This document shows positions 11,504 to 33,783 of a DNA stretch of 33,783 nucleotides, piece by piece. Origin of the DNA: a virus. Each line of letters opens with the position of its first letter. Positions within the stretch are counted from its first letter, which is position 1. The translations under genes and the position numbers were made by a program. The notes beneath the pieces are model-generated. The model did not search any database. It was not told where the DNA came from and saw only the letters and a list, made by a program, of their open reading frames with translations. The stretch spans positions 1 to 33,783 of the IMG/VR virus record IMGVR_UViG_3300042402_002313; one strand, given 5' to 3'.

Positions 11504-11522
11504 TTTATTATCAAATTAAATG

Positions 11523-11553
11523 AACGGGAGCAGTTTATTGTTCCCGTTTTTTT
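11523..11553 (+). terminator. Rho-independent terminator after gp32
   Basis: The stem AACGGGAGCA (11523-11532) pairs with TGTTCCCGTT (11539-11548) through one G-T wobble. The loop is 6 bases (GTTTAT), and the T run continues to 11553. It makes gp32 a monocistronic unit unless read through. Confidence 0.9.
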
Positions 11554-11583
11554 GTTTATATTTTATATAGTAATACAAAAATT

Positions 11584-13624: not shown

Positions 13625-13633
13625 ACAAGCAAA

Positions 13634-14083: not shown

Positions 14084-14085
14084 TA

Positions 14086-14093
14086 CTATTTAT
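14086..14093 (+). promoter_or_regulatory. CTATTTAT motif upstream of the helicase gene
   Basis: CTATTTAT lies in the 34-base gap, 24 bases before the helicase ATG. The same 8-mer lies in two other intergenic gaps, at 21356 and 30485. It could be the -10-like box of a phage-specific promoter. The spacing is compatible with a short leader, but activity is not shown. Confidence 0.35.
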
Positions 14094-14117
14094 TTTTACT
14101 AAACGAGAGAAAACTAT

Positions 14118-15500
14118 ATGGCGACAGGTAAAAATTTTGAGTATTTAGGTAATACTTTTCAATTACAATTATTAAATCAAATTATTGCAGATAAAGATTT
14201 TTCACATTCAATTATTGATGTGATTGAGAACAATTATTTTGAAAATAAGTATTTTAAAATCATCATTCAGATGATTAGAGAGTATTACACAAAATATGAC
14301 CACACACCGTCGTTTGATACGTTAGAACAAATTACAAAATCTGAATTACAACAAGAGCTAGCATCTAAAATTGTTATGGATACAATTAAGAAAATTAAAG
14401 ATGCACCTATCGATGGAGTAGGTTTTGTACAAGAAAAGGCTTTGAAATTCTGTAAACAACAAGAACTACAAAAGGTGATGGGTAAGGCTCAAAAGATCAT
14501 CGATGGTGGTGAGTTTGAGAACTATGACACACTTGAGGAAATGGTTAAAACCGCTCTTCAAGTTGGGGCAAAAGATACTTCTATGTTAGACGTATTCTCA
14601 AATCTTGATCAAGTCCTTGAGGACGATTACAGACACCCAATCCCAATGGGAATACCAGGTATTGACAGATTGTTAAAGGGAGGTTTGGCAAAAGGAGAAA
14701 TTGGTGTTATATTAGCCCCTACGGGAGTTGGTAAATCAACAGTTCTAACTAAGATGGCAAACCACGCATTTAATCTTGGGTTCAACGTACTTCAGATCTT
14801 TTTTGAGGATAACCCAAAGGTAATCCAAAGAAAACACTTCACCCTATGGACTAAAGTTCATCCTGACGATTTGTCAGAGAAAAAAGATGAGGTAATGAAA
14901 AGAGTTAGAGAGATTGAGGAGTCGATGCCTAATAAATTGATTATGAAAAAATTACCATCGGATACTATGACGATGTTACAAATCAAAAATCAAATTAGAA
15001 AAATGGTTTCTGACGGAATTAAAATTGATATGATTGTTTTAGATTATATTGATTGTATTGTACCTGATAAAAATTTAGGTGATGAATGGAAGAGTGAAGG
15101 ATCGGTAATGAGGGCTTTTGAGGCTATGTGTCACGAAATGAATCTTGTGGGATGGACCGCAACTCAAGGTAACAGATCCTCAATATCTTCAGAAGTTGTA
15201 ACCACAGATCAAATGGGTGGGTCAATTAAGAAAGCACAAGTAGGTCACGTTATTATTTCAGTTGCAAAAACATTACAACAGAAAGAAATGAAATTGGCGA
15301 CTATAGCAATAACTAAATCCCGAATCGGTGATGACGGTGTCGTATTTGAAAACTGTAAGTTTGATAATGCAATGATTGAAATAGACACAGAAAGTTCAAT
15401 GACTTTCTTAGGTCTTGAAGAACAAAAAGAAGAAAGACAAAGACAACGAGTTAAAGAACTCTTAGAAAAGAGAAAACAACGAGAAACACAGTCAAATTAA
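14118..15500 (+). CDS. 41: Replicative DNA helicase, gp41/DnaB family
   Basis: A 460-residue hexameric 5'-3' helicase that unwinds the fork and normally works with a primase. It has the two-part layout of the family. The helical N-terminal domain (residues ~1-150) includes LGNTFQLQLLNQIIADKDFS. The RecA-like motor follows, with Walker A APTGVGKST (200-208), Walker B MIVLDYID (305-312) and the switch strand VGWTATQGNRS (344-354). KSRIGDDG (400-407) is the usual place of the arginine finger, with Arg402. The linker motif MGIPGIDRLLKGGLAKGEIG precedes Walker A, as in T4 gp41 and DnaB. The length is close to T4 gp41 (475). No primase is in this window, so it is presumably elsewhere. It belongs to the same + strand run as uvsX and the 5' nuclease. 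Confidence 0.9.
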   Translation: MATGKNFEYLGNTFQLQLLNQIIADKDFSHSIIDVIENNYFENKYFKIIIQMIREYYTKYDHTPSFDTLEQITKSELQQELASKIVMDTIKKIKDAPIDGVGFVQEKALKFCKQQELQKVMGKAQKIIDGGEFENYDTLEEMVKTALQVGAKDTSMLDVFSNLDQVLEDDYRHPIPMGIPGIDRLLKGGLAKGEIGVILAPTGVGKSTVLTKMANHAFNLGFNVLQIFFEDNPKVIQRKHFTLWTKVHPDDLSEKKDEVMKRVREIEESMPNKLIMKKLPSDTMTMLQIKNQIRKMVSDGIKIDMIVLDYIDCIVPDKNLGDEWKSEGSVMRAFEAMCHEMNLVGWTATQGNRSSISSEVVTTDQMGGSIKKAQVGHVIISVAKTLQQKEMKLATIAITKSRIGDDGVVFENCKFDNAMIEIDTESSMTFLGLEEQKEERQRQRVKELLEKRKQRETQSN

Positions 15501-15522
15501 CAAATAAATAAATTTATAATAA

Positions 15523-16470
15523 ATGGAAAAAATACTAGTAGAAAATCCTAGTCGGTTCGTCATCTTCCCTATTGAACACAATGATATTTGGGAATATTAC
15601 AAACAACACCAAGCGGCTTTTTGGACGGCAGAAGAGGTGGATTTAACTAATGACATCAGAGATTGGGAAAAATTAACAGACAATGAGAAATACTTTGTTA
15701 AAAACGTATTATCATTTTTCGCGGCATCAGACGGAATTGTAAACGAAAACTTAGCGGAAAACTTTTACCGAGAAGTACAATATCCTGAGGCGAAGTTCTT
15801 TTACGGATTCCAATTGGCGATGGAAAATATTCACTCACTTATGTATTCATTATTGATTGACACATACATTAACAACCCAAAAGAAAAAGATGAGTGTTTC
15901 AATGCGATAGATAGATTACCTGCGGTTCAGAAAAAAGCTAAGTGGGCTTTAGAGTGGATTGAAAAATCGTCATTTGCGGAAAGATTAGTTGCATTTGCTG
16001 CTGTTGAAGGTATCTTTTTTTCAGGTTCGTTCTGTTCTATTTTCTGGATGAAATCAAGAGGAATCATGCAAGGTTTATGTAATGCTAACTCACTTATCTT
16101 TAAAGATGAAAACTTACATTGTGATTTCGCAATTCACTTATTAAACAATCACTTAGAGAATAAACCTTCTGAAAAACGAATAAAAGAGATTCTATTGTCA
16201 GCTCTTGAAATTGAAAAAGAGTTCATTACAGAATCACTTCCTGTTTCTTTGATCGGTATGAACTCAAACTTAATGAAACAATATCTTGAGTTTGTTGTTG
16301 ATGGGTTACTAATGAAAATGGGTTGTAGTAAAGAATTTAACGTAGAACAACCATTCAAATTTATGGAACAAATTGCGGTTGAAACTAAAGGTAATTTCTT
16401 TGAATCAAGAACAATGGAATATCAGAAGGCAAAACTGAATGAAACAATAACATTTACAGACGACTTTTAA
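15523..16470 (+). CDS. nrdB: Ribonucleotide reductase class I small subunit (NrdB)
   Basis: The beta subunit of class I ribonucleotide reductase. It holds the di-iron centre and tyrosyl radical used by NrdA to turn ribonucleotides into deoxyribonucleotides. All expected ligands are visible: Asp70 in [13 protein letters not shown], Glu101 and His104 in [10 protein letters not shown] with the radical Tyr108 four residues on, Glu162 in FAAVEGIFF, and Glu196 and His199 in KDENLHCDF. The spacing Asp-31-Glu-3-His-4-Tyr matches eukaryote-type R2 proteins, and the [13 protein letters not shown] stretch is characteristic of them. The C-terminus (TITFTDDF) fits the peptide that docks on NrdA. At 315 residues the length is normal. 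It lies 22 bases after the helicase and 10 before nrdA. Confidence 0.95.
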
Positions 16471-16480
16471 ATATTAGATT

Positions 16481-18910
16481 ATGTCATTAAAAATTATTAA
16501 ACGAGGTGGTGAGGTTGTCTCATTTAATCCACAAAAGATTTACAACAGAGTAAAACGAGCTTCAAAAGGTTTGAATGTTAATTCAGACGAAATCTTTATT
16601 AAAGTTATTACTTCAGTACCAACTGAAGGTGAAGTAACCACAAAAGAACTTGACAAGTTGGTTAATGAGATTGCAGCATCTTACACAGGTAGTCATCACG
16701 ACTATTCAAGATTGGCGGCATCGGTTGCAATTTCTTCATACCATAAAGAAACAAATGATAGTTTTTCACAGACTATGATGCAACTTTATGAGGATGGGAT
16801 TATCAATGAAAAACTTATTGAGACCATTAAAGAATACGGTGAAGATACTATCGATGCTGTAATCAATCACGAAAATGATTACAACTTTGATTATTTCGCT
16901 TGGAGATCATTACAAGAAATGTATCTATTGAAACGACCAAATGGTAGGGTAATTGAAAGACCACAACATATGTACATGAGAGTTGCATTGTGGGTTACTT
17001 CAAACATGGCAGATGCGTTTGAATATTACAGATCTTTATCAGAACAATTGATCTCAAAAGCAACACCAATTATGATCAATTCGGGAACTAAAGTTCCTCA
17101 ATTGGCGTCTTGTGTACTTCATTATAATGATGCGGATTCAAGAAAAGGTTTGTTAGATACTTTAACAGATATTTCTACATTCTCATCAGATGCCGCTGGT
17201 ATTGGACTATCTATGTCTAACATTCGTAGTAAAGAAAGTAGAATTTCTAGTTCAGGTGGATATGCCGGTGGTTTATTAAAATATCTTAAGATTGTAAACG
17301 AATCACTTAGGTTCTTTAATCAACAAGGTCGTAGACCAGGTTCTGCGGCTGTCTATCTTGAGCCTTGGCATAAAGATATTTTTGATCTTTTAGATATTAA
17401 AAAGAACACAGGAGCTGAAGAGTTGAGAGCTCGTGACTTATTTACCGCACTTTGGATTCCTGATAACTTCATGAGAGCGGTAAAAGAAAATACTGATTGG
17501 TATTTGTTCTGTCCTAATGATATTAAGAAGGCTGGTTTAAAACCATTACAAGAATGTTATGGTGATGAATATGAAACTGTGTTTAATACGGCTGTTCAGT
17601 TAGGTTTAGGTAAGAAAGTTAAAGCTCAAGACATTTGGAGTAAGATCGTAGAGTCTCAAGTGGAGACAGGAGTTCCATACCTTTGTTCAAAAGACAATGC
17701 CAATCGTAAAACTAATCATCAAAATATTGGTGTTATTAAACAATCAAATCTTTGTAATGAAATTTATCAATATACTGACGAGGAAACGACGGCAATTTGT
17801 ACACTCTCATCTATGGTGTTGAAAAACTTTATTAAATCAGGTAAGTTTGATTTTGAACTTTTATTTAATGAGGTTAGAAAAGTTGTAAGATCACTTAATA
17901 AAGTTGTGGATATCAATAACTACTCAACAGAAAAAGGTAGAAAAGGTGGGTTAGAACAAAGAGCAATTGCTATTGGAACTCAAGGTTTGGCTGATGTATT
18001 CTATTTGATGGATTATATTTTTACATCTGAAGATGCTAAAAAATTAAATAGAGATATCTTCGAAACTATCTATTATGCGGCGATTTACGAAAGTAATCAG
18101 TTATGTATGAATGGTAAGTACAAACCTTACGATTTCTTTGAAGGATCGCCAATGTCTCAAGGGAGATTCCAATTTGATATGTGGAATGTAGACGAAACAA
18201 AACTTTCAGGAATGTGGGATTGGAACAAATTGAAAGAAAATGTTAAATCTCATGGTGTTTGTAATTCATTGTTCACGGCTCAAATGCCTGTAGCATCTTC
18301 GGCAAAAATCACAGGTTCATATGAAATGACAGAACCAGCACACTCAGCAATCTTTAACAGACGAGTTGTTGGTGGTGAAATTATGATTGTTAACAAATAT
18401 CTAATCAATGATTTTGAAAAGATTGGTATTTGGTCTGAAGACTTAAAAAATGAAATTATATTTAATGAAGGGTCAATTCAAAATATTAACTTCAATAATC
18501 ATTTAGACCCTGAAGATAAAAATTACAATAAGAAAGTTAAACGAATTGAACACTTAATTCCTAAGTATAAAACAATTTGGGAGATCTCACAAAAACAACT
18601 TATTGATATGGCAGCAGATAGAGCACCATTTATTGATCAATCACAATCAATGAATATCTATATGTCTAACCCTACATTATCAAAGATAACTTCATCACAC
18701 TTCCATTCTTGGGAGAGCGGTCTAAAAACACTTTGTTATTATGTTAGAACTAAAGCTATCTCAACAGGGGCAAAACACTTAGCAATGGACATCTCCAAAA
18801 GAGAAAAACCAAAAACTACACCAGAACCCCCTAAAGTAGATTATTCACATTTAAATCTACCGTCAAGACCTGATAATTCTGATTTTGAATGTTTTGGTTG
18901 TTCATCCTAA
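16481..18910 (+). CDS. nrdA: Ribonucleotide reductase class I large subunit (NrdA)
   Basis: The catalytic alpha subunit, 809 residues. An N-terminal ATP-cone (residues ~3-90, starting IIKRGGEVVSFNPQKIYNRV) gives allosteric control. The ten-stranded barrel has the redox pair Cys211 (QLASCVLHYN) and Cys440 (AICTLSSMV). The active-site triad is Asn423, Cys425 and Glu427 (SNLCNEI). The tyrosine radical-transfer pair is Tyr753-Tyr754 (LCYYVRTK). The C-terminal tail ends ECFGCSS, with Cys804 and Cys807 for re-reduction by thioredoxin or glutaredoxin. All key residues are present, so the enzyme should be active. The order nrdB-nrdA is the reverse of T4. No inteins or introns interrupt it. It is the last gene of the replication/nucleotide run and is followed by a terminator. 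Confidence 0.96.
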   Translation: MSLKIIKRGGEVVSFNPQKIYNRVKRASKGLNVNSDEIFIKVITSVPTEGEVTTKELDKLVNEIAASYTGSHHDYSRLAASVAISSYHKETNDSFSQTMMQLYEDGIINEKLIETIKEYGEDTIDAVINHENDYNFDYFAWRSLQEMYLLKRPNGRVIERPQHMYMRVALWVTSNMADAFEYYRSLSEQLISKATPIMINSGTKVPQLASCVLHYNDADSRKGLLDTLTDISTFSSDAAGIGLSMSNIRSKESRISSSGGYAGGLLKYLKIVNESLRFFNQQGRRPGSAAVYLEPWHKDIFDLLDIKKNTGAEELRARDLFTALWIPDNFMRAVKENTDWYLFCPNDIKKAGLKPLQECYGDEYETVFNTAVQLGLGKKVKAQDIWSKIVESQVETGVPYLCSKDNANRKTNHQNIGVIKQSNLCNEIYQYTDEETTAICTLSSMVLKNFIKSGKFDFELLFNEVRKVVRSLNKVVDINNYSTEKGRKGGLEQRAIAIGTQGLADVFYLMDYIFTSEDAKKLNRDIFETIYYAAIYESNQLCMNGKYKPYDFFEGSPMSQGRFQFDMWNVDETKLSGMWDWNKLKENVKSHGVCNSLFTAQMPVASSAKITGSYEMTEPAHSAIFNRRVVGGEIMIVNKYLINDFEKIGIWSEDLKNEIIFNEGSIQNINFNNHLDPEDKNYNKKVKRIEHLIPKYKTIWEISQKQLIDMAADRAPFIDQSQSMNIYMSNPTLSKITSSHFHSWESGLKTLCYYVRTKAISTGAKHLAMDISKREKPKTTPEPPKVDYSHLNLPSRPDNSDFECFGCSS

Positions 18911-18998: not shown

Positions 18999-19457
18999 AT
19001 GGCAAATGGTATAACTTATGGTATTTCGTTCCCTTTCGTGGATTCATTCACTGGTAGATATTTGGATGTTACTAATTCTACTGAGGGTGAAATTAGATCT
19101 AATCTAGTTCATTTATTATTAACTAGAAAAGGTAGTAGATATTTTTTACCCGATTTTGGTACTAGATTATATGAATTTATCTTCGAACCATTAGATGGAC
19201 CGACGTTTTCTGATATTGAGTCAGAAATAAGAGACACAGTAAGGACTTACATGCCTAATTTACAGATAACTAATATTACCGTTGAACCAGGTTCTGCCGG
19301 TTTAGAAGATAAAGGTTATACTGTAAACCAAGATGGTGAAAGAGAATTTAGAGTTACTAACATTTCTAATTTAGAACATACGGCAAGAATCAAAATTGAT
19401 TACAGAATAACAGATTCGGCTTTTGAATCACAAGATTTTGTGATATTAAATATTTAA
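18999..19457 (+). CDS. 25: gp25-like baseplate wedge protein
   Basis: A 152-residue protein of the GPW/gp25 family, the wedge component that joins the inner baseplate to the first sheath ring in contractile tails and type VI secretion. The hallmark stretch is at residues 31-64: EIRSNLVHLLLTRKGSRYF, then LPDFGTRLYEFIFEP. The second conserved helix and strand are EIRDTVRTYMPNLQITNITVEP (76-97). An extra segment at ~98-126 makes it a little longer than T4 gp25 (132). It starts 35 bases after the nrdA terminator, so a promoter is expected in 18964-18998. That stretch holds TATATTTATAT close to the ATG. It is followed after 6 bases by the gp6-like gene, the standard gp25-gp6 pairing. Confidence 0.93.
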   Translation: MANGITYGISFPFVDSFTGRYLDVTNSTEGEIRSNLVHLLLTRKGSRYFLPDFGTRLYEFIFEPLDGPTFSDIESEIRDTVRTYMPNLQITNITVEPGSAGLEDKGYTVNQDGEREFRVTNISNLEHTARIKIDYRITDSAFESQDFVILNI

Positions 19458-19463
19458 TAATAT

Positions 19464-21305
19464 ATGGCAGAGAAAAAAATATCCTATACGGTTAGGGATT
19501 TCCAAGGAGTAAGAACAGAGCTTATAAATTTTACGAGGACTTACTATCCTGATTTAGTCCAAAATTTTAACGATGCTGGTATTTTCTCAGTCATGTTAGA
19601 TTTGAATGCCGCAGTAACTGACAATTTAAATTATCAAATAGATAGAAGTATTCAAGAAACTGTTTTACAGTTTGCTCAACAAAAAAATTCAGTTTACAAC
19701 ATTGCAAGAACTTATGGTTTAAAAATACCAGGACAAAGACCTTCGGTTGCGTTAGTAGATTTTTCAATCACAGTCCCTGCGTTTGGAGATAGAGAAGATT
19801 TAAGATATTGTGGAATTTTGAGAAGGGGATCGCAAGTAAATGGGGCAGGACAACCTTTTGAAACAGTTTATGATATTGATTTTGCTTCACCAATAAATGC
19901 TGAAGGGTCACCTAATAGAGTTAAAATTCCTAATTTTGACCCAAGTGGTAAGTTAATTAACTACACCATAGTAAAACGTGAAGTAGTAGTTAACGGAATC
20001 ACAAAAGTATTCAAAAGAGTAATTACCCCAAATGATGTAAAACCATATTTTGAATTATTTTTACCTGAAAAAAACATTTTAGGTATCTCAAGTGTATTAT
20101 TAAAATCTGGTACACAATATTCTACCATACCAAACCCACAAGACTTTTTAACTTTAGGACCCGAAAGATGGTTTGAAGTTGATGCATTAGTACAAGATAG
20201 AGTATTTGTGGAGGACCCAACTAAAGTATCTGACCAACCTGGTATTAAAGTAGGTAGATATATTACAACATCCAATAAATTTATTTCTGAATATACACCT
20301 GAAGGATTTTGTAAAATGACATTTGGTGGTGGTAATATTTCGGCTGAAGAACAATTAAGAGAATTTGCTCGTGATGGTAAAGGATTTGATTTGAGTAGAT
20401 ATACCAATAATTATTCTTTGGGCGCCGCTTTAACATCAAACACAACTTTATTTGTACAATACAGGATTGGTGGTGGACTTTCTAGTAATGTTGGTCTAAA
20501 CACTATAAATCAGATAGGTACAGTATCATTTGCGGTCAATGGACCTTCAGAGTCTGTAAACAGAAGTGTAATAAATAGTTTACAGTGTAATAACGTAACG
20601 GCCGCAATTGGAGGATCAAACATACCAACAACTGAAGATGTTAGAAATTTGGTATCATTTAATTTTGCTGCACAAAACAGAGCTGTAACGGTTAACGATT
20701 ATAATTCTTTAATCAGAACAATGCCTTCTCAATTTGGGGCACCTGCAAAAGTTGCAATAACCGAGGAAAATAATAAAATAAGAATAAAAATGTTATCTTA
20801 TGATACAAGTGGTAGTCTTACTAATGTTGTATCTAACACCTTAAAACAAAATGTTGCAAATTATTTATCAAACTATAGAATGATAAATGATTATATTTCA
20901 ATCGAAGCTGCAGAAACTATAGATCTTTCAGTCACTGTTGACGTTGTGTTGGATAATAGTCAAAACCAAGGTGCGATTATTTCTAAAACTATACAAATAG
21001 TTTCTGAGTTCTTTAACCCACTTGTTAGGGAGTTAGGTCAAAATGTTAATATATCTGAATTAAGAAGGTTAATACAATCCGAGAATGGAATTGTTAGTCT
21101 TTCTGACATTTCGTTCTTTAATCAAGTTGGAGGTCAGTATTCATCGGCACAAACATCAATGCCATATTCAAACCCATTAACAAGACAAATCCAACCAACT
21201 GCGGATACTATCTTTGCAACCCCAACACAAATCTATCAAATTAGATATCCAAATAAGGATATAAATGTTAGAGTTCTCAACCTTAAATCGGTTAACTTTT
21301 CATAG
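19464..21305 (+). CDS. 6: gp6-like baseplate wedge protein (baseplate J family)
   Basis: A 613-residue protein matching the gp6/baseplate-J family, which forms the ring-like core of the wedges. The N-terminus is typical: SYTVRDFQGVRTELINFTRT, then a D-A-G-x-x-x-x-x-L-x-x-x-x-x-D-x-L-x-Y helix (residues 37-57) and QKNSVYNIARTYGLKIPG (73-90). The mid-protein signature NRAVTVNDYNSLIRTMPSQFG (about 405-425) is the usual 'n-R-A-V-T-x-x-D-Y' hinge into the C-terminal domain. The length is close to T4 gp6 (660). It forms the conserved gp25-gp6 pair with the upstream gene. The following gap (21306-21380) is 75 bases, contains no terminator that I can see, and holds a CTATTTAT motif. Confidence 0.9.
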   Translation: MAEKKISYTVRDFQGVRTELINFTRTYYPDLVQNFNDAGIFSVMLDLNAAVTDNLNYQIDRSIQETVLQFAQQKNSVYNIARTYGLKIPGQRPSVALVDFSITVPAFGDREDLRYCGILRRGSQVNGAGQPFETVYDIDFASPINAEGSPNRVKIPNFDPSGKLINYTIVKREVVVNGITKVFKRVITPNDVKPYFELFLPEKNILGISSVLLKSGTQYSTIPNPQDFLTLGPERWFEVDALVQDRVFVEDPTKVSDQPGIKVGRYITTSNKFISEYTPEGFCKMTFGGGNISAEEQLREFARDGKGFDLSRYTNNYSLGAALTSNTTLFVQYRIGGGLSSNVGLNTINQIGTVSFAVNGPSESVNRSVINSLQCNNVTAAIGGSNIPTTEDVRNLVSFNFAAQNRAVTVNDYNSLIRTMPSQFGAPAKVAITEENNKIRIKMLSYDTSGSLTNVVSNTLKQNVANYLSNYRMINDYISIEAAETIDLSVTVDVVLDNSQNQGAIISKTIQIVSEFFNPLVRELGQNVNISELRRLIQSENGIVSLSDISFFNQVGGQYSSAQTSMPYSNPLTRQIQPTADTIFATPTQIYQIRYPNKDINVRVLNLKSVNFS

Positions 21306-21380: not shown

Positions 21381-24300
21381 ATGCCCAAATCATATAGAAT
21401 TAGGACCGAAGTTGGTGTTGATAAGTATATCAACGTAAACCTCGAACAAGACTGGGAATCTTTAGAGATACTTTCTTTGAAGATTTTAGCCGATGACTTA
21501 TACACACGTTTCTGCGCCGATTATGGTGTTGTTGTTGGTAGAGTTTTTGTAAATAATGGTTTTGGTTTACCAAAGGCAAAAGTATCGGTATTTATTCCGT
21601 TAGAAGACGCTGACGAATTAGATCCGGTAATATCAGAACTATACCCATATAAAACAATTACAGATACTAACGAAGCTGGATATAGATATAATTTATTACC
21701 TAAGTTACCATCATATAATGGTCACCAATCTACAGGATCATTTCCTAATGTTGGTGACGTTTTAATGGATGAGTCGTATATTGAGGTTTATGACAAGTAC
21801 TACAGATATACGGTTACCACAAATGAAAGTGGTGACTTTATGATTTTTGGTGTACCAATTGGAAATCAAACAATTGTCATGGACGTTGACTTATCTGATA
21901 TTGGATGTTTTTCATTATCACCACAAGATTTAATACAACAAGGGTTGGCAACAGAAACTCAAGTTAACGGATCGACTTTTAAGACATCAACTAATTTAAG
22001 AGAATTACCTCAAATTAAAAATTTGGTATTTGATGTAGATGTTAGACCTTTTTGGGGCGATGCTGAACTATGTCAAGTTGGAATAACAAGAGTTGATTTT
22101 GACTTAACTAAACAAGCAAATATCAACATACAACCTACCTCAATTTTTATGGGGTCTATTATTTCAACAACGGATGATGATGCGCTCAAAGTTAGTTGTA
22201 AACCAAAAAATAACACCGGAAACCTTTGCGAATTAGTTGCGGGACCTGGTATTATACAGGCAATAAGACACACTATAAATTCAGATGCGAATGGACTCCC
22301 TATTTTAGAAAGATATGAAGTTGAGGAGGAAGGTAAAATTATAGATCCTGACGGAGTTTTCTTGTTAAACTTACCTATGAATTTAGATTATGTTTTTACT
22401 AATGAATTTGGGGAACAAGTTTTATCAGATGACCCATCAAAAGGGATACCAACAAAAGGTAAATATCGTTTTAGATTTAGATGGCAAAATGAACAAGGGT
22501 TACAAAATAGTTTCATGAGAGCGGATTACTTAGTACCAAACATTAAAGAGTACGGATGGTCTAACTCATCAAATGACCCATTGGACCCAAGTTTAGTTGG
22601 GGTATATACTTACCCGCAGATACCTGTAGGATCAGTTTCAGGAACTCCTGTAACATTTTTAATAAATGAAGGACTTTCACAGGCGGTTACAACAAATATT
22701 GAATCATATCAGATCTATATTAACAACCAACTTTATTTAGGGTCAATAAATTCAATATTTATTAACGCAGGAGACGTATTACGAATCGTTGCAACACCAT
22801 TGGATCCTACACAAGCCCAAATAATAAAATTCACACAGATTCCTCAACAATTATTCGACCTTTATAGGTCCTACGCCTTTAGTACTGATTGGGATGATTA
22901 CGCAAATCAACAAGAAGCTTTAGATTGCGAAGACACATTTTACGAATTTAAGTATAATAAGGTCTATACAACCGCAATGTTTTTGGATAGATATAAAAAA
23001 GGGTTGGGTAGAGCCAAACACTTAGGTATCAAAGAAATTGATAATAGAACTTGTAAATCTACAGTTAACACTTTCCCTGTTAATGATATTATAAGAAATT
23101 TTGATTTTATTTACTTTGTGTTCAACCTCCTACTAAATGTTTTGGCGTTTCCTATAATGTCGTTAATTTTTGTGATACACATTGTTGCGGCAATATGGGA
23201 ACTTATTAGAAAAATAATAAACGCAATAAAAAATATTTTTAATATTGATACCCCAGACATACCTGGTTTCCCAAGAATAGGATTACCTATGATTGCGTAT
23301 CCTGATTGTACAAGTTGTGAATGTGATTGTGGAATCAATGAAGATAATAACGATAGTCAAGAGTTACAAGCGGTAAACGATTATAATAATGGTTCTAATG
23401 ATTTACCTTATACAGCAACTTTAACTACTGTTAATACTTTATTAGCACCTGTAAATAGTGCGAATCTTTATGATATAACTCACCCAAATTTACTAAGATT
23501 AGCGGATGGTAGCGAACCATATGATTGTGGTGTTGGATTTGGGGGAAACTATGAATCATTTGAAACACTTTTAGACAACAACGATGTATCAATAGATGTT
23601 GTTGTTCAGGCAAGTTTAGATTTGAAAAGAACTATTTCAGGTTATGATGTGATTTCATCAACAAACCCAAATAAATTATTTAGTAACGAATTTTATTTAT
23701 TACATGCACCACAACCTTTTTTATGGTCGGCAGAAAAAAAGGGGGCGGCTCCTGATAATAGATATTTTGCGTTTCCATTAACCGATACCTATCCTCAAAA
23801 ATTAAATGAATTTAACACAAGGGATAAGTACTTTACCGGTAAAAATAAAATTACTACATGGGTTAACCCTTCTTTGAATACGGTGCCTGCAAATTCAACA
23901 TTTAACGATGAAGTACTTGTTGTTTTAATGAATTCTGGATCAATAAGTCGTTTAGGTATTGGTAATATATGTACATTCCAAAATCCACAATATACTGATA
24001 GTGGATCTACTAATAGAATGGTAAATCTTACAGGGTTAACACAAAATCAATTTAATAATAATGCGGTAACAGGAACAACCTTAACAGGACAAACCTCAAT
24101 TATTGTTAATTATGCATCACCATCAGACCCAACAGGGCAAACAAATTTACAAAAAAATATATTGGTCAATATACCGCAAGTTTCACAATTACCAGTTCAA
24201 GGAAACAGTAACGTTGAACAGAGTTATTTAAAGTATGCGACTGATGTTGAATATTACCAACTAATAACAGGTATGACAGTGTCGGATTTTGAAGTGGCAT

Positions 24301-26720
24301 CTCAAGGTACCTCGGGATATTATAATTCTGCGTATTTATTCCACAATGTTCAAATCGCAGTTCCTAATTGTAATGTAGTTAATTACGTATCAGGATATAG
24401 TGCATGGACCATTACAGACGTTTTAAGGTTGATACCGGGTTATGAAAGTTTTGAAGTTTGTATTTTCACAAGAGGGGTTGATCCGCATACACCAAAACAA
24501 ACTATAAGATATGACCTTTCTAATATCTTTGGATTTACTACTCCGAATACGGTACAAGTTGAGGGTAGTTATTATTTAAACATACCAATACAAGCGTATA
24601 CTTCAGGTAGTAAACCAAGAAGTCATAATACTACAACCAACAATGATAATTTTTTATATTTTAATTCTTATAGTTTTAATATAACAGGGACAAATTATAC
24701 TCCTTTCTCATCTAATTTACCTTATTACTATTTAAGTACTGACGATACAATCTCTAACTCTTATGTTGCGGCACCTTTCTTGAATTGGCAGACAACAGGA
24801 AGTTTGGTTTTATCAACAGGATATCTTATAAACACACCATATACTCAACCAAGAAGTCAATCAGATTATGTTGGTGGTGGAGCGTTTGCCAGTTGGTCAA
24901 ATAATAATGGTTTTGGTTATAATTTAGACACTGATAGTGGAGGTGGTTGTAATAACTTGTGCCAAGTAAGTCAATATTATAAATCTCAATCAACGGGTAA
25001 TAATTTTGGATCAAGTTCTGCTGGGGGTAACTTAGCTGCACTATATTCATCGGCATATTATAGATACTCTTTATCACCAATAAATTTCTTGAATCCATCA
25101 AGGATTGTAATGAGAAGTGATCGACTACCAACATCCACAGGTGTGGAAAATGGAGCGGCAACCAGAACAGGATATGGTTTACATCAAAATAATAATTTTA
25201 GTTTATATACTGATACAGGTTTAGCATCACCACCGACAATTTATGCTGGTGGAGAACCAAGTTCAGGAGAGGATAATGATTCTGATGATGTGATTTCAGG
25301 TTTAACCTCGACCTTAACTTGTGAGGGTATGGTCCCATTGGCATGTTATAGTGGTTCTGGTAATAGTGTTGGAGTCTTACCCTCAGGACAATGTGATGTA
25401 CCACAAGATAGAATGGTAAACGGATGTTACTGTTTAATTAACAGACCCTACATTATCCAAATATTTGACGACATAAGACTGTTCTTAGAATGGAAAGTAA
25501 GATTTACTATGAATTTGGCGGCTTGTAAAGGAATTTTTGCTCAAGTGTTTCAGAATAATTGGATAAATGGAACTTTGTATATGTTTAGCTTTAACAAAAG
25601 GAGAACTTTGTCAACATCAAATGTATTGACAGAATATAGATATTGTGAAGATGTTTTAGTTTTCAATCAGTTAACAAACACATTCTATTATAGATCCTCA
25701 CCTTGGGATGGAAATGATTTTATAGGTAAGGATTCACCGTCAACTTCTTTTAATAATTTAGATTATGGTTATAATACTAAACAAATACAATTCCCAACCA
25801 CAATTGTTGATTTAGGACCCAGAGATTATTTTATAAACGAAATATGTTGTTCACCAAGTAATTCAGATGGTTTTGGTTCATACTATGCAGGACAAATAAA
25901 ATCTACTTCTTATCAAGACAACTCAGACATCATCCAACTAGGGTTCCTATCAAGAATTTTAAATCAAGGAACTAGAAGTAGAATGTTACCGATTGGTGTT
26001 GGTAATAGCTCAGGTGAAGGTAGAGGAATAATTCAATTCTTTAACAGCAGTCGTGGTGGTGATAGAATTGATGGCGATTGGGCTCAAATGTTGTCTATAA
26101 ACTCTGAGTGGAAAGTATTACCATTTATCACTGAAAATATACCAAGTAATCAATATATCTATTTCGGTGATAATATGAATGGTGGAAGTGGATTGAATAA
26201 TGATGAAATTGTACCAATAATGGGTCTATTTTTTACTGCAGACACCGCATATAGAAAGATTGAATCTCCGGGGATAGAAACTTTTAGTTTTAATCCATTA
26301 CTGGAAGAAAATTTTGGATACCCAAAATCACAAGAAGTACCACACTATAAATGGCAAATAAAAACACCTTCAGTATTTCTAGGTACGCCAAATATATTTG
26401 GATCGGAAGATAATAATTGGTACACTACAACTTATAGTAATACTTTTTTTAGTAAAAAGTATCAAGACTTGAATTTTACAAGTTTAAATGAAAAATATAT
26501 AACGACTCAAACAAAACTTGGTTTTATTGCTAGTTACAATATAAACGGTAATCCATTACCAATTACACCATTAAATAGTATAACACAAGGAGACCCAAGT
26601 ACCGATCCGAATGAGGCTGTTGTTGTTGGGGCTCCATACCATTTTTATTTTGGTTTGAACAATGGAAAAACCGCAATAAACAGATTTTATAAATTATACG
26701 TGGGAGTAGAAGAAGAATGA
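21381..26720 (+). CDS. Giant (1779-residue) baseplate-region protein with Cys cluster and hydrophobic helix
   Basis: One frame of 1779 residues. It starts MPKSYRIRTEVGVDKYINVN and continues into a beta-sandwich resembling carboxypeptidase regulatory-like domains (residues ~48-170): VVVGRVFVNNGFGLPKAKVS, TITDTNEAGYRYNLLP, then YRYTVTTNESGDFMIFGVPI. A strongly hydrophobic segment at 576-605 (FIYFVFNLLLNVLAFPIMSL onward) is followed by an amphipathic helix WELIRKIINAIKNIF and a cysteine cluster C643-x2-C646-x-C648-x-C650. The remainder is Asn/Ser/Gly/Tyr-rich beta-type sequence with further cysteines near 1320-1400. It follows gp6, where T4 has gp7 (1032 residues), so a peripheral wedge or tail-tip role is inferred. 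No T4 homology is visible. It overlaps the next gene by 4 bases (ATGA). Structural protein likely; exact role unknown. Confidence 0.72.
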   Translation: MPKSYRIRTEVGVDKYINVNLEQDWESLEILSLKILADDLYTRFCADYGVVVGRVFVNNGFGLPKAKVSVFIPLEDADELDPVISELYPYKTITDTNEAGYRYNLLPKLPSYNGHQSTGSFPNVGDVLMDESYIEVYDKYYRYTVTTNESGDFMIFGVPIGNQTIVMDVDLSDIGCFSLSPQDLIQQGLATETQVNGSTFKTSTNLRELPQIKNLVFDVDVRPFWGDAELCQVGITRVDFDLTKQANINIQPTSIFMGSIISTTDDDALKVSCKPKNNTGNLCELVAGPGIIQAIRHTINSDANGLPILERYEVEEEGKIIDPDGVFLLNLPMNLDYVFTNEFGEQVLSDDPSKGIPTKGKYRFRFRWQNEQGLQNSFMRADYLVPNIKEYGWSNSSNDPLDPSLVGVYTYPQIPVGSVSGTPVTFLINEGLSQAVTTNIESYQIYINNQLYLGSINSIFINAGDVLRIVATPLDPTQAQIIKFTQIPQQLFDLYRSYAFSTDWDDYANQQEALDCEDTFYEFKYNKVYTTAMFLDRYKKGLGRAKHLGIKEIDNRTCKSTVNTFPVNDIIRNFDFIYFVFNLLLNVLAFPIMSLIFVIHIVAAIWELIRKIINAIKNIFNIDTPDIPGFPRIGLPMIAYPDCTSCECDCGINEDNNDSQELQAVNDYNNGSNDLPYTATLTTVNTLLAPVNSANLYDITHPNLLRLADGSEPYDCGVGFGGNYESFETLLDNNDVSIDVVVQASLDLKRTISGYDVISSTNPNKLFSNEFYLLHAPQPFLWSAEKKGAAPDNRYFAFPLTDTYPQKLNEFNTRDKYFTGKNKITTWVNPSLNTVPANSTFNDEVLVVLMNSGSISRLGIGNICTFQNPQYTDSGSTNRMVNLTGLTQNQFNNNAVTGTTLTGQTSIIVNYASPSDPTGQTNLQKNILVNIPQVSQLPVQGNSNVEQSYLKYATDVEYYQLITGMTVSDFEVASQGTSGYYNSAYLFHNVQIAVPNCNVVNYVSGYSAWTITDVLRLIPGYESFEVCIFTRGVDPHTPKQTIRYDLSNIFGFTTPNTVQVEGSYYLNIPIQAYTSGSKPRSHNTTTNNDNFLYFNSYSFNITGTNYTPFSSNLPYYYLSTDDTISNSYVAAPFLNWQTTGSLVLSTGYLINTPYTQPRSQSDYVGGGAFASWSNNNGFGYNLDTDSGGGCNNLCQVSQYYKSQSTGNNFGSSSAGGNLAALYSSAYYRYSLSPINFLNPSRIVMRSDRLPTSTGVENGAATRTGYGLHQNNNFSLYTDTGLASPPTIYAGGEPSSGEDNDSDDVISGLTSTLTCEGMVPLACYSGSGNSVGVLPSGQCDVPQDRMVNGCYCLINRPYIIQIFDDIRLFLEWKVRFTMNLAACKGIFAQVFQNNWINGTLYMFSFNKRRTLSTSNVLTEYRYCEDVLVFNQLTNTFYYRSSPWDGNDFIGKDSPSTSFNNLDYGYNTKQIQFPTTIVDLGPRDYFINEICCSPSNSDGFGSYYAGQIKSTSYQDNSDIIQLGFLSRILNQGTRSRMLPIGVGNSSGEGRGIIQFFNSSRGGDRIDGDWAQMLSINSEWKVLPFITENIPSNQYIYFGDNMNGGSGLNNDEIVPIMGLFFTADTAYRKIESPGIETFSFNPLLEENFGYPKSQEVPHYKWQIKTPSVFLGTPNIFGSEDNNWYTTTYSNTFFSKKYQDLNFTSLNEKYITTQTKLGFIASYNINGNPLPITPLNSITQGDPSTDPNEAVVVGAPYHFYFGLNNGKTAINRFYKLYVGVEEE

Positions 26721-28513: not shown

Positions 28514-29309
28514 AATTAAATTATTAAAAACAGAACTTGATCAGTTCGTTAATATTCCTGTAAATATGCAATGGGATTTTACAGGTCGAGATGATAGTAT
28601 TTCTGAATATGAAACAGATGTTTTAAGAAGAGTTATTGGTTTACCTATTGATTTTGAAATTGCAAAATTCGATCATAACGTATTTCCAAATATGGATTCG
28701 GCAATCAACTACGAATTTTATTTCTACGATGATTTACAATCAATAACCGCAAATACAATTCCTCTGACCGCTTGGACAGTTTCATATTTAAATAATGGGT
28801 TTAGTGCTGAAGAAGTGTATTATTATGCAAAACCATTCACCAAATCATTTTTCAAATTAGATTTATATGACACTACTGAAGAAAGAACACAACAAATTTA
28901 TTTATCCATAATATTACCCGTCCAACAAGGACAAACTCAAACAGTAAGCTTATCACCATTTACTCCACCTGTCGAAATCAAAAAACCAAAGATGAAATTA
29001 GACTATATTGGAGATAAAGAGGGGTTTGCCATTTATTGGTTAAGATATAGAGATTTTATTGATATAGACACTTTTTTTATGACCGCAAAATTTTTTGACG
29101 CAAGATTAGGAGTTTTTAAACAAATGACAAATAAGGTCCAATCAACAATAACACCAAATAAATTTAACTTTAATAATGCCGATTATTTTTATTATAGGGT
29201 TGATCTAAATTATAACAATAAAACATACGAAGTGTTTTCAACATCAACAAATCAAAGAGTTGGGGATTCATTAACACCGATAAAATTTTTCGAATATGTT
29301 AACCCATAA
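28500..29309 (+). CDS. Probable structural protein, baseplate region (269 residues)
   Basis: The ATG at 28500 lies 14 bases inside the previous gene. The helical, charged N-terminus (NKIKLLKTELDQFVNIPVNM) is followed by a beta-rich, aromatic body including YEFYFYDDLQSI, PLTAWTVSYLNNGFS and FAIYWLRYRDFIDIDTFFMT. A short Gln/Ser/Pro linker near residues 147-162 (QGQTQTVSLSPFTPPVEIKK) separates two domains of similar size. No recognised motif. Tight packing on both sides (the stop shares a base with the next ATG, TAATG) indicates it belongs to the same baseplate operon. Function unknown beyond probable virion component. Confidence 0.7.
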   Translation: MNANKIKLLKTELDQFVNIPVNMQWDFTGRDDSISEYETDVLRRVIGLPIDFEIAKFDHNVFPNMDSAINYEFYFYDDLQSITANTIPLTAWTVSYLNNGFSAEEVYYYAKPFTKSFFKLDLYDTTEERTQQIYLSIILPVQQGQTQTVSLSPFTPPVEIKKPKMKLDYIGDKEGFAIYWLRYRDFIDIDTFFMTAKFFDARLGVFKQMTNKVQSTITPNKFNFNNADYFYYRVDLNYNNKTYEVFSTSTNQRVGDSLTPIKFFEYVNP

Positions 29310-30484
29310 TGGAATTACAGGAATATAAATTTATAGTTTCACCCGAAAATATTAAAAGTGATATTATTTTCGTAACTTATACAGGAGATACTGATATTAC
29401 GACTATTATAGATCCTTGTTGTCTTACGGCATCTACTTTTAGTGCGACTACCACAGGGACCACAGGTGTGTACCTCCCAATGGACTATCTTTTATCAGGA
29501 AATACTGGTGGAACATCGTTTTTAACAGGTTTATCTGTTAATATTATGATCACCGAATCTGCGGTTGATATTGGTTGGTACACACCAACCGATGGGTTAA
29601 TTTTACAGGCTGACGTTTTAAATAACTTCATTGTAACTGCCAACACTTTAAATCCTTACACATTTACATTTTATAATACATCAGATTTAGAACTAATAAA
29701 ATTTTTACAACTTGTCACATATACTTTGGATTGGGGGGATGGATCGCCACAACAATCTGTTTTAGGTATTACCCCAATAATACACACTTACCCAACAGCA
29801 CCAAATAACTATACTGTTACATTAACCGCTAATTCACCATGGGGAATTTCAAAAGTACAAAAAATTGTTAATGTTCCATATGTCGATGCGGTTATACCAA
29901 ACCCTCAAGGATCTATAACATTTTTTCCTGCTGGTGGAAATTGGACAGGAACTCCGATTAGTTATGATTATATTTTTACGGGAGATTCTAACACAGATAT
30001 CAATGATTACTATTCCTACAATTATACATCTGTACCTTTTGTTGTTTCTGGTTACACACAATCAACATTAAATGATATTGCGCAATTTGGACCAAAAATA
30101 AATTTAGCGGGAGGTAAATATAAATTAGGAATACAAGTTACAGGTACAACAGGTGCTATAGGAACATATTGGGGAGTTGACCCAACTAACACATATTCGG
30201 CTTATACCATAAATGGTATAAACTATTTTGATTACGAAGATTTCACAATTTATGTTACAGATTCTTATGGTCTTGTACCTGGAGAAATTGTGTTGAGTGC
30301 TATCACAAAAAATGAAGCTTTATTAAATGTCATTGACCAACCAGAAATTATAACTAATGTTTATATTGAAAGAGGTAAGTACACACCTTTAGAAAATGTA
30401 ATGAGAATAGGGGAAGTCGATACTGTTGGAGACTTAGAAAAATACGGATACAAATATTTCAATGTAGAAAAAGTGTCGACATAA
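29309..30484 (+). CDS. PKD-domain virion protein (391 residues)
   Basis: The start overlaps the previous stop by one base (TAATG). A PKD/Ig-like domain is recognisable at residues ~105-190. It has YTLDWGDGSPQQ, the PKD 'W-x-F-G-D-G' turn with Leu-Asp-Trp-Gly-Asp-Gly-Ser at 140-146. HTYPTAPNNYTVTLTANSPW (159-178) is the PKD 'H-x-Y-x-x-x-G-x-Y-x-V-x-L-x-v' strand pair. It closes with KVQKIVNVPY. PKD domains are beta-sandwiches common in Bacteroidota surface proteins, where they act as spacers or bind proteins and glycans. The flanking regions, with a Thr/Gly-rich N-terminal part and a beta-rich C-terminal part, are not recognised. As part of the baseplate operon it may be a peripheral or fibre-attachment protein that contacts the host surface. 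The domain call is fairly sure; the role is inferred. Confidence 0.72.
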   Translation: MELQEYKFIVSPENIKSDIIFVTYTGDTDITTIIDPCCLTASTFSATTTGTTGVYLPMDYLLSGNTGGTSFLTGLSVNIMITESAVDIGWYTPTDGLILQADVLNNFIVTANTLNPYTFTFYNTSDLELIKFLQLVTYTLDWGDGSPQQSVLGITPIIHTYPTAPNNYTVTLTANSPWGISKVQKIVNVPYVDAVIPNPQGSITFFPAGGNWTGTPISYDYIFTGDSNTDINDYYSYNYTSVPFVVSGYTQSTLNDIAQFGPKINLAGGKYKLGIQVTGTTGAIGTYWGVDPTNTYSAYTINGINYFDYEDFTIYVTDSYGLVPGEIVLSAITKNEALLNVIDQPEIITNVYIERGKYTPLENVMRIGEVDTVGDLEKYGYKYFNVEKVST

Positions 30485-30511: not shown

Positions 30512-31417
30512 ATGGCTACAGGTAATTACGGAACAATAAGACCATCAGATGTTAGTCCTGAAGATGTAGAAATCGTTATGGTTTATACTGAATCAAGAGA
30601 CGACACACAAAATTTTACACTCACAACTTTGAACGCTCAAGACGTTCTTAGACCATATTTTAATAATGATGCTACGGGAGGTGATACTGTTGAGGTTTTA
30701 GGTGGTTTGTACAATTTAAAATTACCCGCAGACCAATTCAATAAATTAGGTATATATACCCTTATGATAAGACCCGCACAAATTAGGACTTTAATAACTG
30801 ATTGTGGTGTTTTATCATCTTTACCAAATGTTAAAGGTATAGTTATTGATTTAAATAATGTCCCAACACAATATAAAAATAAATTTGTTAATCAAGGACT
30901 TGTTGGATTTAGAGTTGAGTATTTGAATCCTGATGGGACTAAAATCCCTAATTTTTTTAGAATAATAACATCTTCATTTTACTGTGAACCAGTTATCCAA
31001 AACTTAACTAACACAATTCAAAAATCTATCAGATATAGATATGTGGAAGGAGCAACTAATTTATTATTTTGTACTTTGTCCCCATCTTCATCACCCACTA
31101 ATAAACCTAGTGCTACACCATATATAGGACAACCAAATCAAAATATTATAATTACAAATACATATTTTAATCCTATATCAACTGAAATTGAAATTGTTGA
31201 TCAAGACATCTCAACACTTGCAATTGCGCTTTACGGTAATCAAACTAAGTCTATTGAAGATGGTATTTACACAATCTACGATTCTGATAACAACATCTAC
31301 AAACAATACAACTTGTATGAAATTAAAGATCAGTTTAATACATTACTTTATGAGGTTAGACAAGATCGTGGTGAGAATATTGATTTCTCTAAAGCCTTTA
31401 ATAATATCACAGCTTAA
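30512..31417 (+). CDS. Probable structural protein, baseplate region (301 residues)
   Basis: A 301-residue protein beginning MATGNYGTIRPSDVSPEDVE after an A-rich leader with no Shine-Dalgarno sequence. The first two thirds look like a compact alpha/beta domain (IVMVYTESRDDTQNFTLTTL, YTLMIRPAQIRTLITDCGVL). Ser/Thr/Pro-rich residues (LSPSSSPTNKPSATPYIGQP, about 189-208) form a hinge, and a C-terminal beta domain ends with a charged helix. No known motif. The previous gap (27 bases) suggests a fresh translation start or a promoter, whereas its stop overlaps the next ATG (TAATG). Likely a virion component of the tail/baseplate set; family unrecognised. Confidence 0.7.
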   Translation: MATGNYGTIRPSDVSPEDVEIVMVYTESRDDTQNFTLTTLNAQDVLRPYFNNDATGGDTVEVLGGLYNLKLPADQFNKLGIYTLMIRPAQIRTLITDCGVLSSLPNVKGIVIDLNNVPTQYKNKFVNQGLVGFRVEYLNPDGTKIPNFFRIITSSFYCEPVIQNLTNTIQKSIRYRYVEGATNLLFCTLSPSSSPTNKPSATPYIGQPNQNIIITNTYFNPISTEIEIVDQDISTLAIALYGNQTKSIEDGIYTIYDSDNNIYKQYNLYEIKDQFNTLLYEVRQDRGENIDFSKAFNNITA

Positions 31418-33783
31418 TGGCAACAAATAAATTTACTTGTCCACCTCAGAGTAGTGCGGCCAATCAATTCTCAAATAATTTGGTTGGAGTTCAGTTAGTG
31501 ACTGGCGGTGGTTTAACGCAAGCAAATTTTAACTTTACTACAAATATTACTGAAAAACAGAACCGAACTTTTACTATCGGTACATTTTCAGACCCAATAA
31601 ATCTTGAGTCAATAAATATTGAGAACAATATTGAGGCTGCAGATATATTAGCAAACAACTATAGGGTTTATCCTAATTATGATCTTTCACAAGTAACTAA
31701 CTTCACACAATACGGATCATTAACAAAAAGATTTTCAGTATCTATTACAAAAATAATAAATTATTTTCCAGCGGCTTTAGAGGTATCACCTCAAACTGCT
31801 GGTTTTATAACACAAGAAACCGCGATCAATATTTCTTATGATCCTGTGGAAGACGATACAACTTTTGAAATCACACTGTCCTCAATAAGAAACCCGTTTG
31901 ATATTGACTACTCAATAAACGCCGATACAAATTCATTATTTAATGAAAACGAAGTTTCTCCATTGAGAAACATGAAACAACAATTCAAAAAATACGCATT
32001 AGTTATTGGTGGTAATGAATACCCTGTAAACTATATTTACCCAACTGATAGTTCATCAACAACATTCAAACTTATTGTTGATGGTAATCCATTTGGTGGT
32101 AACCAAATATCTTATGATTATTTAGTCATAAGACCAAACAACTATGAGGTTAATAGAGTTTTTAATTTGAATTTTGATGCGGTTGAAAACTTTTTGTTGA
32201 ATAGACAAATAACACCGGCTTACACCGCAACTTTAAAAGTGCCAAAAGAACAGGACAATGGTACATACAAAATTACAACAGAATTAGTTACATTCCCAAG
32301 AGCGGGTTTATGGAATTTAGATATTATTAGTGCGAGTTTCGATAATTATTTAACTCAATTAAATGATTTTGCAACAAGTTTAGATGAGTATACTACAAAT
32401 ATAGTGTCTAGATTTTTAACCACAGGTGCTTTGAAAGAATTTGACACTCCTGACCAAAGATTCGAAAAATTATTACAAATTTACGGAAGAAGTTTTGACG
32501 AAACAAAAACATTCATATCTGCATTAGGTAATATGAATAGTGTTCATTATACAGTAAAAAATGACATACCTTCTCAACTCTTAAAAAATTTAGCTCAAAC
32601 TTTAGGGTGGGTCACTAATTTCTCACCAATATCAAATGAAGAACTTTTACAGGCAGTATTCACAACTCAACCAAATAGATTTCCTGGTTTACAAATAGGA
32701 CCAACACCTGAAGAATTAAATTACCAATTTTATCGTAATTTGATTTTGAATTCTGCGTACCTATTCAAATCCAAAGGAACTAGAAAATCTATTGAGTGTC
32801 TTTTAAGAATGGTTGGAGCACCTGAAGCTTTAATAGATTTTAATGAACACATTTATGTTGCCGATCAAAGAATCAACATGAGTGAGTTTACTAAACAATA
32901 TTATCAAATTACTGGAGGTACGTATATAGAACAATTACCTGTTTTACAAGGTGATAACACATTCTCAATTCAGGGAATTCAATACACTGGTTTTACAACA
33001 ACATCAACTAATATCAATGTATTAACTACAAGGACTGACTACCCTGTTGATGATTTAGGTTGTCCAAAAATGCCAACACCAACAGAAGAGTACTTCTTCC
33101 AAATTGGAGGAGGTTGGTATGAATCAACACCTGATCACAGAATGCCTGAATTCGCAGTACCAACGAATATTGTGTTTACAGGTAATAACCCAAATTTCCA
33201 AACTCAACTTTTACCTTTTAATTATGGTGAAGAATATCTTAGTAGATATAGAAACTTTCCATACATGAATTTAGGGTTCAAATTAAGAAGAATACAAGAT
33301 AACAAAAAAAGTTGGGTAGATACTGATCCAACATTAAGAGTTAGTTCGGATGGTGGTTTTACTGCTTATTATGAGGTAGGTGAGGAATGTTTAACATTGA
33401 ATGTTAAAAATGTTGACATAATGATGAATCCTGCCCAAGGTTTGGTTTACGATGTTTGGTCAATGTCTCGACAATATAATTTCCCTATCCCTGAACAAGG
33501 TTTATTTTATACACCACCATCTCCTTGCGACATACCTAATCCATATCCAAAATTAGGTGGAGTTGATTGGACAACCATAGTCCCAAAACCAAAACAAAAA
33601 ACTTTCTTTGAGTTTGCGCAAACTTTTTGGAGAAACATGGTTAATACAAGAAATCGTCAATTTATTACCGATGGTAAGACAGGAGGTTACCCAACATTAC
33701 AATCAATATATTGGAGATATTTGGAATCTCAAAATTTAGCCGGAATACAAAATGATAATTTTACATATCAAACTATGATAGAT
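31417..33783 (+). CDS. Large baseplate-region protein with P2 gpI-like motif, 3' end cut by window edge
   Basis: An ATG at 31417 (TAATG overlap with the previous stop) opens a frame that runs without a stop to the last base, giving 789 codons so far. It begins MATNKFTCPPQSSAANQFSN. The N-terminal ~250 residues are beta-rich. A helical section follows (residues ~300-470) with DIPSQLLKNLAQTLGW (383-398) and YLFKSKGTRKSIECLLRMVG (about 448-467). The second matches the 'K-G-T-x-x-[AS]-[IL]-x-x-x-L-x-x-x-G' helix of P2 gpI-type tail proteins, which share a role with the gp7-type wedge of other contractile systems. The rest is Pro/Tyr-rich. A wedge or fibre-attachment protein is the likely role. 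The gpI link rests on one motif, so it is tentative. Confidence 0.7.
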   Translation, partial: MATNKFTCPPQSSAANQFSNNLVGVQLVTGGGLTQANFNFTTNITEKQNRTFTIGTFSDPINLESINIENNIEAADILANNYRVYPNYDLSQVTNFTQYGSLTKRFSVSITKIINYFPAALEVSPQTAGFITQETAINISYDPVEDDTTFEITLSSIRNPFDIDYSINADTNSLFNENEVSPLRNMKQQFKKYALVIGGNEYPVNYIYPTDSSSTTFKLIVDGNPFGGNQISYDYLVIRPNNYEVNRVFNLNFDAVENFLLNRQITPAYTATLKVPKEQDNGTYKITTELVTFPRAGLWNLDIISASFDNYLTQLNDFATSLDEYTTNIVSRFLTTGALKEFDTPDQRFEKLLQIYGRSFDETKTFISALGNMNSVHYTVKNDIPSQLLKNLAQTLGWVTNFSPISNEELLQAVFTTQPNRFPGLQIGPTPEELNYQFYRNLILNSAYLFKSKGTRKSIECLLRMVGAPEALIDFNEHIYVADQRINMSEFTKQYYQITGGTYIEQLPVLQGDNTFSIQGIQYTGFTTTSTNINVLTTRTDYPVDDLGCPKMPTPTEEYFFQIGGGWYESTPDHRMPEFAVPTNIVFTGNNPNFQTQLLPFNYGEEYLSRYRNFPYMNLGFKLRRIQDNKKSWVDTDPTLRVSSDGGFTAYYEVGEECLTLNVKNVDIMMNPAQGLVYDVWSMSRQYNFPIPEQGLFYTPPSPCDIPNPYPKLGGVDWTTIVPKPKQKTFFEFAQTFWRNMVNTRNRQFITDGKTGGYPTLQSIYWRYLESQNLAGIQNDNFTYQTMID

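Follow-up and report, generated by a model that had tools for sequence, protein, structure and literature searches.

A giant baseplate-operon protein of contractile phages carries a conserved membrane-type helix and a cysteine motif within an exchangeable central cassette

The window, by which we mean the whole stretch of 33,783 nucleotides that was analysed (IMG/VR record IMGVR_UViG_3300042402_002313), derives from an uncultured freshwater-type contractile phage. It encodes, in this order, a gp25-like protein, a gp6-like protein and a giant protein of 1779 amino acids, the subject of this analysis (Table 1). The adjoining upstream gp25 and gp6 genes suggest that the giant protein is part of the virion. 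The reading frame beginning at 31417 matches three gp7-position proteins by profile, among them those from Microcystis phage Mel-JY01 (E 1.4e-6) and from Flavobacterium phage immuto (6e-5), and it has a full-length counterpart at L210:6036-9023. With this frame as a gp7/gpI-like candidate, the 1779-aa protein is probably not the one that fills the gp7 role. The product of the 31417 frame also holds a stretch, KGTRKSIECLLRMVG, that resembles tail protein I.

Table 1. Features of the window, with positions in nucleotides of the window
Feature	Position	Strand	Basis
gp25-like baseplate wedge / sheath initiator	18999..19457	+	PF04965 E 1.5e-12
gp6 / Baseplate_J-like wedge protein	19464..21305	+	PF04865 E 3e-5, phrog_219 E 3e-20
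1779-aa giant baseplate-module family protein	21381..26720	+	ORF, ATG to stop
N-terminal part (aa 1 to ~390), conserved	21381..22550	+	identity in relatives, AF2
Exchangeable central cassette, aa about 390-1755	22548..26645	+	L001/L036, L007/L035, window/L059, L019/L025 comparisons
TM-type helix 1, aa 576-606	23106..23198	+	conserved polar stripe N582/N586/H600
Short amphipathic helix, aa 607-620	23199..23240	+	
C-x2-C-x-C-x-C (C643-C646-C648-C650), aa 643-650	23307..23330	+	invariant in relatives
Beta-rich domain, aa about 677-1284	23409..25232	+	pLDDT mostly 80-97
Extreme C-terminus, aa 1757-1779, conserved	26649..26717	+	near-invariant FGLNNGKTA..
Candidate gp7/gpI-like wedge protein	31417..33783, runs off window	+	profile matches

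The T4-type sheath family was matched in all seven long relatives (G001 to G007), two of which passed the curated cut-off. The sheath frames of these relatives, at 1110-1125 amino acids, are much longer than the T4 sheath, which has 659. One relative, G002, also carries gp19-like tube and T4-baseplate-hub-like genes, and the presence of sheath, tube and hub genes indicates that these are contractile phages. Among GenBank phages, only Flavobacterium phage immuto has a match to the window's UvsX protein (42%), which suggests a host among the Bacteroidota.

The 1779-aa protein belongs to a large family, with relatives encoded by at least 252 stretches in IMG/VR. PHROGs, NCBIfam, PDB and the GenBank phage records contain no match to the family, no relatives were found in GTDB genomes, and a search of PDB with profiles of 30 and 76 sequences returned one marginal permease and nothing else. 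Conservation was assessed in two sets, of 49 non-redundant and 76 diverse relatives. The protein is less conserved (62%) than gp25, gp6 and most of the replication genes (88-97%), which points to faster evolution.

The conserved N-terminal part, which is common at 97-100% DNA identity to phages with different centres, is the probable docking part. The mean identity of aa 1-300 is 81-89% among the 49 relatives, and in the AlphaFold2 model the N-terminal part is predicted to be beta-sandwich-like. The earlier note had called this N-terminus carboxypeptidase-regulatory-like; although the model is beta-sandwich-like, that assignment is not secure, as the matches to CarboxypepD_reg (PF13620; E 0.003-0.11) always fall below the cut-off, with a best score of 18.3 bits compared to the 32.3 set by Pfam. 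A fold search with the N-terminal half yielded generic beta-sandwich matches only, with TM-scores <0.15 on the query. Farther along the protein, the fast-evolving domain at aa 677-1284 is rich in beta structure, and no Foldseek match at E<0.001 was obtained in PDB or BFVD for the C-terminal half that includes it. The last residues (aa 1757-1779) are 83-100% identical in most pairs that differ in their cassettes, and 74% identical between the window and L012.

The hydrophobic run that the earlier note had described at residues 576-605 is real and of transmembrane grade, nearly uninterrupted except at the conserved N582, N586 and H600. The mean Kyte-Doolittle value of this 30-mer is 2.34, which was equalled in 0.03% of 20,000 composition-preserving shuffles of the same protein, and its best 19-mer scores 2.63 compared to 1.28 for the next separate 19-mer. 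The apparent insertion free energy of segment 576-606 was computed as -3.0 kcal/mol, using a position-dependent function with published parameters, checked on poly-Ala/Leu test peptides only; no segment in any other reading frame of the window has an energy below 0. Similarly, in G002 (first 60 kb, coding strand), strong TM-like segments occur in only one large reading frame, which encodes the relative of the 1779-aa protein. The one other peak is marginal and lies in NrdB, and a tape-measure-sized frame of 1705 amino acids has no TM segment.

The helix is present in all 76 diverse relatives, and positions 576-606 are essentially apolar in these sequences except for N582 (97%), N586 (87%, otherwise mainly S/T) and H600 (100%), which lie within 40 degrees of each other on a helical wheel and thus form one face. 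P591, which may kink the helix, is conserved, as is R/K610 in the flank (99%), and D575 and R572 lie ahead of the helix. AlphaFold2 models a single helix over 576-620 with a pLDDT of about 70-79. The dN/dS ratio over aa 565-625 was 0.01-0.19 where dS was unsaturated, consistent with purifying selection on this region where it is measurable. A chance hydrophobic stretch is excluded by the shuffles and the conservation.

The C-x2-C-x-C-x-C motif lies exactly at the residues given in the earlier note, and was found in none of 20,000 shuffles. Its four cysteines are invariant in 49 of 49 relatives and in 76 of 76, although part of the larger set entered by way of a scan of IMG/VR DNA for the motif itself, and for those members its presence is by construction. 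The invariance among the 49 is not a product of the search method, because only one of the six query peptides in the first search held the motif, in the form CECDCGIN, which most relatives lack. An ordinary buried element combined with non-conserved cysteines would have spoken against the earlier note; the cysteines are invariant and a long modelled helix is always present, so that the segment may be a membrane-inserting or an oligomerising one. The four cysteines do not stand out as a singular feature of the protein: all 11 cysteines in the N-terminal half are invariant, as are several in the C-terminal half, and high cysteine conservation is thus a property of the whole protein. We considered the motif as a general phage module and rejected this, since the frames with YP[DE]CxxC[DE]CxC in IMG/VR DNA, among the matches listed, all belong to this family. 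AlphaFold2 leaves segment 643-650 unresolved (pLDDT about 30). A second cluster of invariant cysteines (1314, 1322, 1338, 1349, 1351, 1382, 1422 and 1489) lies at 25320-25847 of the window, in a region, aa 1314-1489, that AlphaFold2 also models poorly; it may provide further metal sites.

In the window, the hydrophobic run is followed by the amphipathic helix that had been claimed, at aa 607-620, but most relatives carry three TM-like segments rather than one. In these long forms, aa 607-620 are replaced by about 60-75 more residues, usually with two extra TM-like segments. The two forms are separated by the distance from FLDRY to the last cysteine of the motif, which is 103-117 residues in the short forms (the window, L001-L011, L169, L181 and L200) and 172-192 in all others. 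One TM segment was predicted in 11 of 11 short forms and three in 54-56 of 65 long forms, depending on the threshold, with 9-11 of the 65 giving some other number. The parity of spans thus appears to be kept in most forms, as expected for a true membrane crossing, a suggestive result that is sensitive to threshold.

The short forms are scattered among the long forms in a tree of aa 1-555, such that six changes of state are needed, and comparison of the DNA attributes this scatter to recombination of the central block. In the clearest pair, L001 (short) and L036 (long), the DNA is mostly 96-100% identical before codon ~390 and again from codon ~1755, and this identity reaches at least 2 kb downstream through unchanged genes; inside the cassette, DNA identity is 40-97% per 25-codon bin and the proteins are about 50% identical. 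The pairs L007/L035 and window/L059 show a like mosaic with different and less sharp boundaries. In L019 and L025, both long forms, the switch occurs at codon ~590-600, which is the end of helix 1, and the sequences reconverge from codon ~1500. The boundaries thus differ by pair, with starts at about aa 283-600 and ends at about 1500-1755. Cassette identity is 70-100% among short forms, compared to 34-58% between short and long forms, while helix 1 (aa 500-606) keeps about 80% conservation from one cassette type to another. An assembly chimera is an unlikely source of the mosaic, because each cassette type is found again in many independent metagenomes and four pairs show the mosaic. The membrane module, the cysteine linker and most of the C-terminal half thus recombine as one allele.

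Exchange of the cassette beside unchanged downstream genes implies that no allele-matched neighbour is needed in that operon, which fits an outward-facing part. By analogy with other tail proteins, in which parts swapped beside identical flanking genes usually face the host, the cassette suggests a host-facing part, and if so, the conserved N-terminus and the extreme C-terminus would be the anchors. One explanation of this pattern is that the protein is a peripheral component of the tail-fibre network or a receptor-binding protein, in which the C-terminal beta domain of the cassette would confer receptor specificity and the hydrophobic module would be only the core of a homotrimeric hinge or stalk. 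We consider this improbable. The extreme C-terminus of a fibre is usually its variable tip, but here it is conserved, and no match to a fibre or adhesin family or fold was found. The beta-rich, fast-evolving region at aa 677-1284 is as this explanation would have it, and when near-identical phages differ by the swap of a central block, the protein concerned is usually a receptor-binding or other tail protein (PMC10684548, on domain shuffling in tail proteins).

The position of the gene and a GenBank note of a membrane domain in T4 gp7 led us to consider that the 1779-aa protein is itself gp7, and this identity was rejected for want of profile similarity and because the 31417 frame matches gp7-position proteins. 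Comparison of the N- and C-terminal halves by hhalign with T4 gp5-gp11 and with proteins of immuto, Mel-JY01 and LR756508 gave nothing above the reporting limit, and the helix/Cys module was not found in the post-gp6 proteins of immuto, Mel-JY01 and the huge phage LR756508. T4 gp7 resembles the 1779-aa protein in being large and encoded directly after gp6, and in having one TM-like segment (879-906, the 'predicted integral membrane domain' of GenBank; computed dG -1.0), but it lacks a cysteine cluster.

T4 gp7 nevertheless carries this segment as a component of a solved, soluble baseplate, and this precedent is a reason to regard as a real possibility, second in our ranking, that the helix of the 1779-aa protein is permanently buried, packing within a core bundle or a trimer or hexamer core without ever meeting a membrane, with the cysteines forming a structural knot of zinc or Fe-S type beside it. 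Helices do make up the (gp6)2-gp7 core bundle in wedges of the T4 type (PMC10457771), the N/N/H face is suited to helix-helix contacts, helix 1 is kept across cassettes, and threading a folded two-domain protein across a membrane is not easy. Several observations do not sit well with a buried helix: the segment is far more apolar in this family than in gp7 (dG -2 to -5 over 31 residues with no charge), the two further segments of the long forms exceed what a core needs, and the region after helix 1 swaps freely beside unchanged neighbours. In addition, the protein is not detectably gp7, and it is the frame at 31417 that matches gp7-position proteins.

The closest working analogue, though not detectably related, appears to be the megatron of RcGTA and roseophage R4C, a giant baseplate protein (1304-1447 aa) with a TM-capable segment, comparable to segment 576-606 here. 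Its helices are proposed to enter the outer membrane and to form a pore at the host surface, and the protein works next to a hub with a four-cysteine Fe-S site in the same baseplate (RcGTA, PMC7296036; R4C, PMC10276861). The megatrons differ in that the RcGTA and R4C tails are non-contractile, the TM part is N-terminal (aa 1-46) rather than in the middle of the protein, and the Fe-S site belongs to another protein. The family showed no homology to the megatron chains, nor did it match any PDB chain at a meaningful E-value. Tail-tip Fe-S proteins of the lambda gpL type likewise have four conserved cysteines (PMC7296036, PMC10276861), but the ion-binding domain of the hub is built from two separate segments, compared to the compact motif beside a TM helix here, and the 1779-aa protein matches no sequence in PDB. 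The R4C tape measure protein has mid-protein TM segments (277-303 and 309-327) and is thought to reach the host membrane, but tape measures form one long coiled helix, whereas the 1779-aa protein models mainly as beta, is encoded in the wedge operon after gp6 and is swapped in blocks.

The explanation to which we tentatively incline is that this is a baseplate-anchored protein with an exchangeable, host-facing and membrane-active centre, megatron-like in action. The conserved N-terminal part, and probably also the extreme C-terminus, would anchor the protein near the gp25/gp6 wedge, and the centre would project outward as the tail portion exchanged between phages. In the free virion, helix 1 (with, in long forms, usually two more spans) would be shielded, most simply if several copies associated with one another through the N582/N586/H600 face, and rearrangement of the baseplate on the cell would expose the helix, which would then enter or perturb the host membrane. 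The cysteine cluster could be a metal or iron-sulphur knot, or a redox-sensitive clamp, and would secure the point where the membrane segment joins the large C-terminal domain.

Indirect support for host-membrane insertion comes from the one- and three-span forms together with the exchange of cassettes. The invariable presence of a TM-grade helix, apolar save for a stripe on one face, and the restriction of strong TM segments to this one frame of the tail module, both in the window and in the 60 kb of G002, also count in favour of membrane action. However, if the spans are odd in number, the two large folded halves would come to lie on different sides of the membrane, which a preassembled protein could hardly achieve unless the segment formed a re-entrant hairpin around P591 or inserted peripherally. 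Moreover, it is normally the tube and hub, rather than parts of the wedge, with which contractile phages pass through the envelope, and the conservation of helix 1 from cassette to cassette is what one would expect of an internal structural element. The gp7 precedent, which is the strongest counter-argument, and the problem of the folded halves are the reasons that we hold membrane action only tentatively, with the buried helix ranked behind it.

A membrane role without any part in entry is also conceivable: the hydrophobic module might serve, during assembly or lysis, to attach baseplates or tails to the producing cell's inner membrane. The one or three spans, with R/K610 and D575/R572 at the flanks, do resemble a true integral membrane segment, one that might insert cotranslationally, but here too the large halves would end on opposite sides of the membrane, and a recombining, diversifying cassette is not expected of a generic tether. 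We think such a tether quite unlikely.

Returning to a membrane-active centre, a more specific proposal, which we regard as doubtful, is that in contractile phages, probably of Bacteroidota, this baseplate protein itself inserts a cysteine-knotted bundle of helices into the host membrane as contraction takes place, and that the one- and three-span forms are swapped as one cassette with most of the C-terminal domain, presumably to match host envelopes or to escape membrane defence. Each of these elements is known already, namely membrane helices in tail proteins, four-cysteine metal sites at tail tips and mosaicism of tail proteins. A giant protein of a contractile-phage wedge operon that unites all three, and whose one- and three-span alleles are exchangeable, was not found in the literature, libraries or phage records searched. 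Membrane-active tail parts have been proposed mainly for tape measures and non-contractile tips, and to our knowledge it is poorly understood how contractile phages handle the membrane once their tube is through the envelope. Here, a widespread and unnamed family has a strictly conserved membrane-type module, in one- and three-span alleles, that is swapped between otherwise near-identical phages, and the natural pairs L001/L036 and L019/L025 offer a ready comparison for the role of this module.

Several neighbouring genes deserve mention. A block of replication and nucleotide genes (SSB, UvsX, exonuclease, DnaB-like helicase, NrdB and NrdA; 10637-18910) lies inside the tail module and is 90-97% identical in G002, conserved far beyond the baseplate protein. 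Between the tail and replication genes, positions 9804-10526 encode a 240-aa protein with a long Pro/Ala/Asp repeat (DPLADPAAAGAPP). The frame at 2484-9557 encodes a 2357-aa hub-type protein, with a weak C-terminal match to the tail family phrog_52 and none among GenBank phages. Directly after the sheath gene of G002 (L208:3504-7067) lies a gene for a protein of 1188 amino acids with 19 DUF5122 propeller repeats, and in the baseplate operon of the window (29309-30484) a 391-aa protein has a PKD-like domain at aa 134-182.
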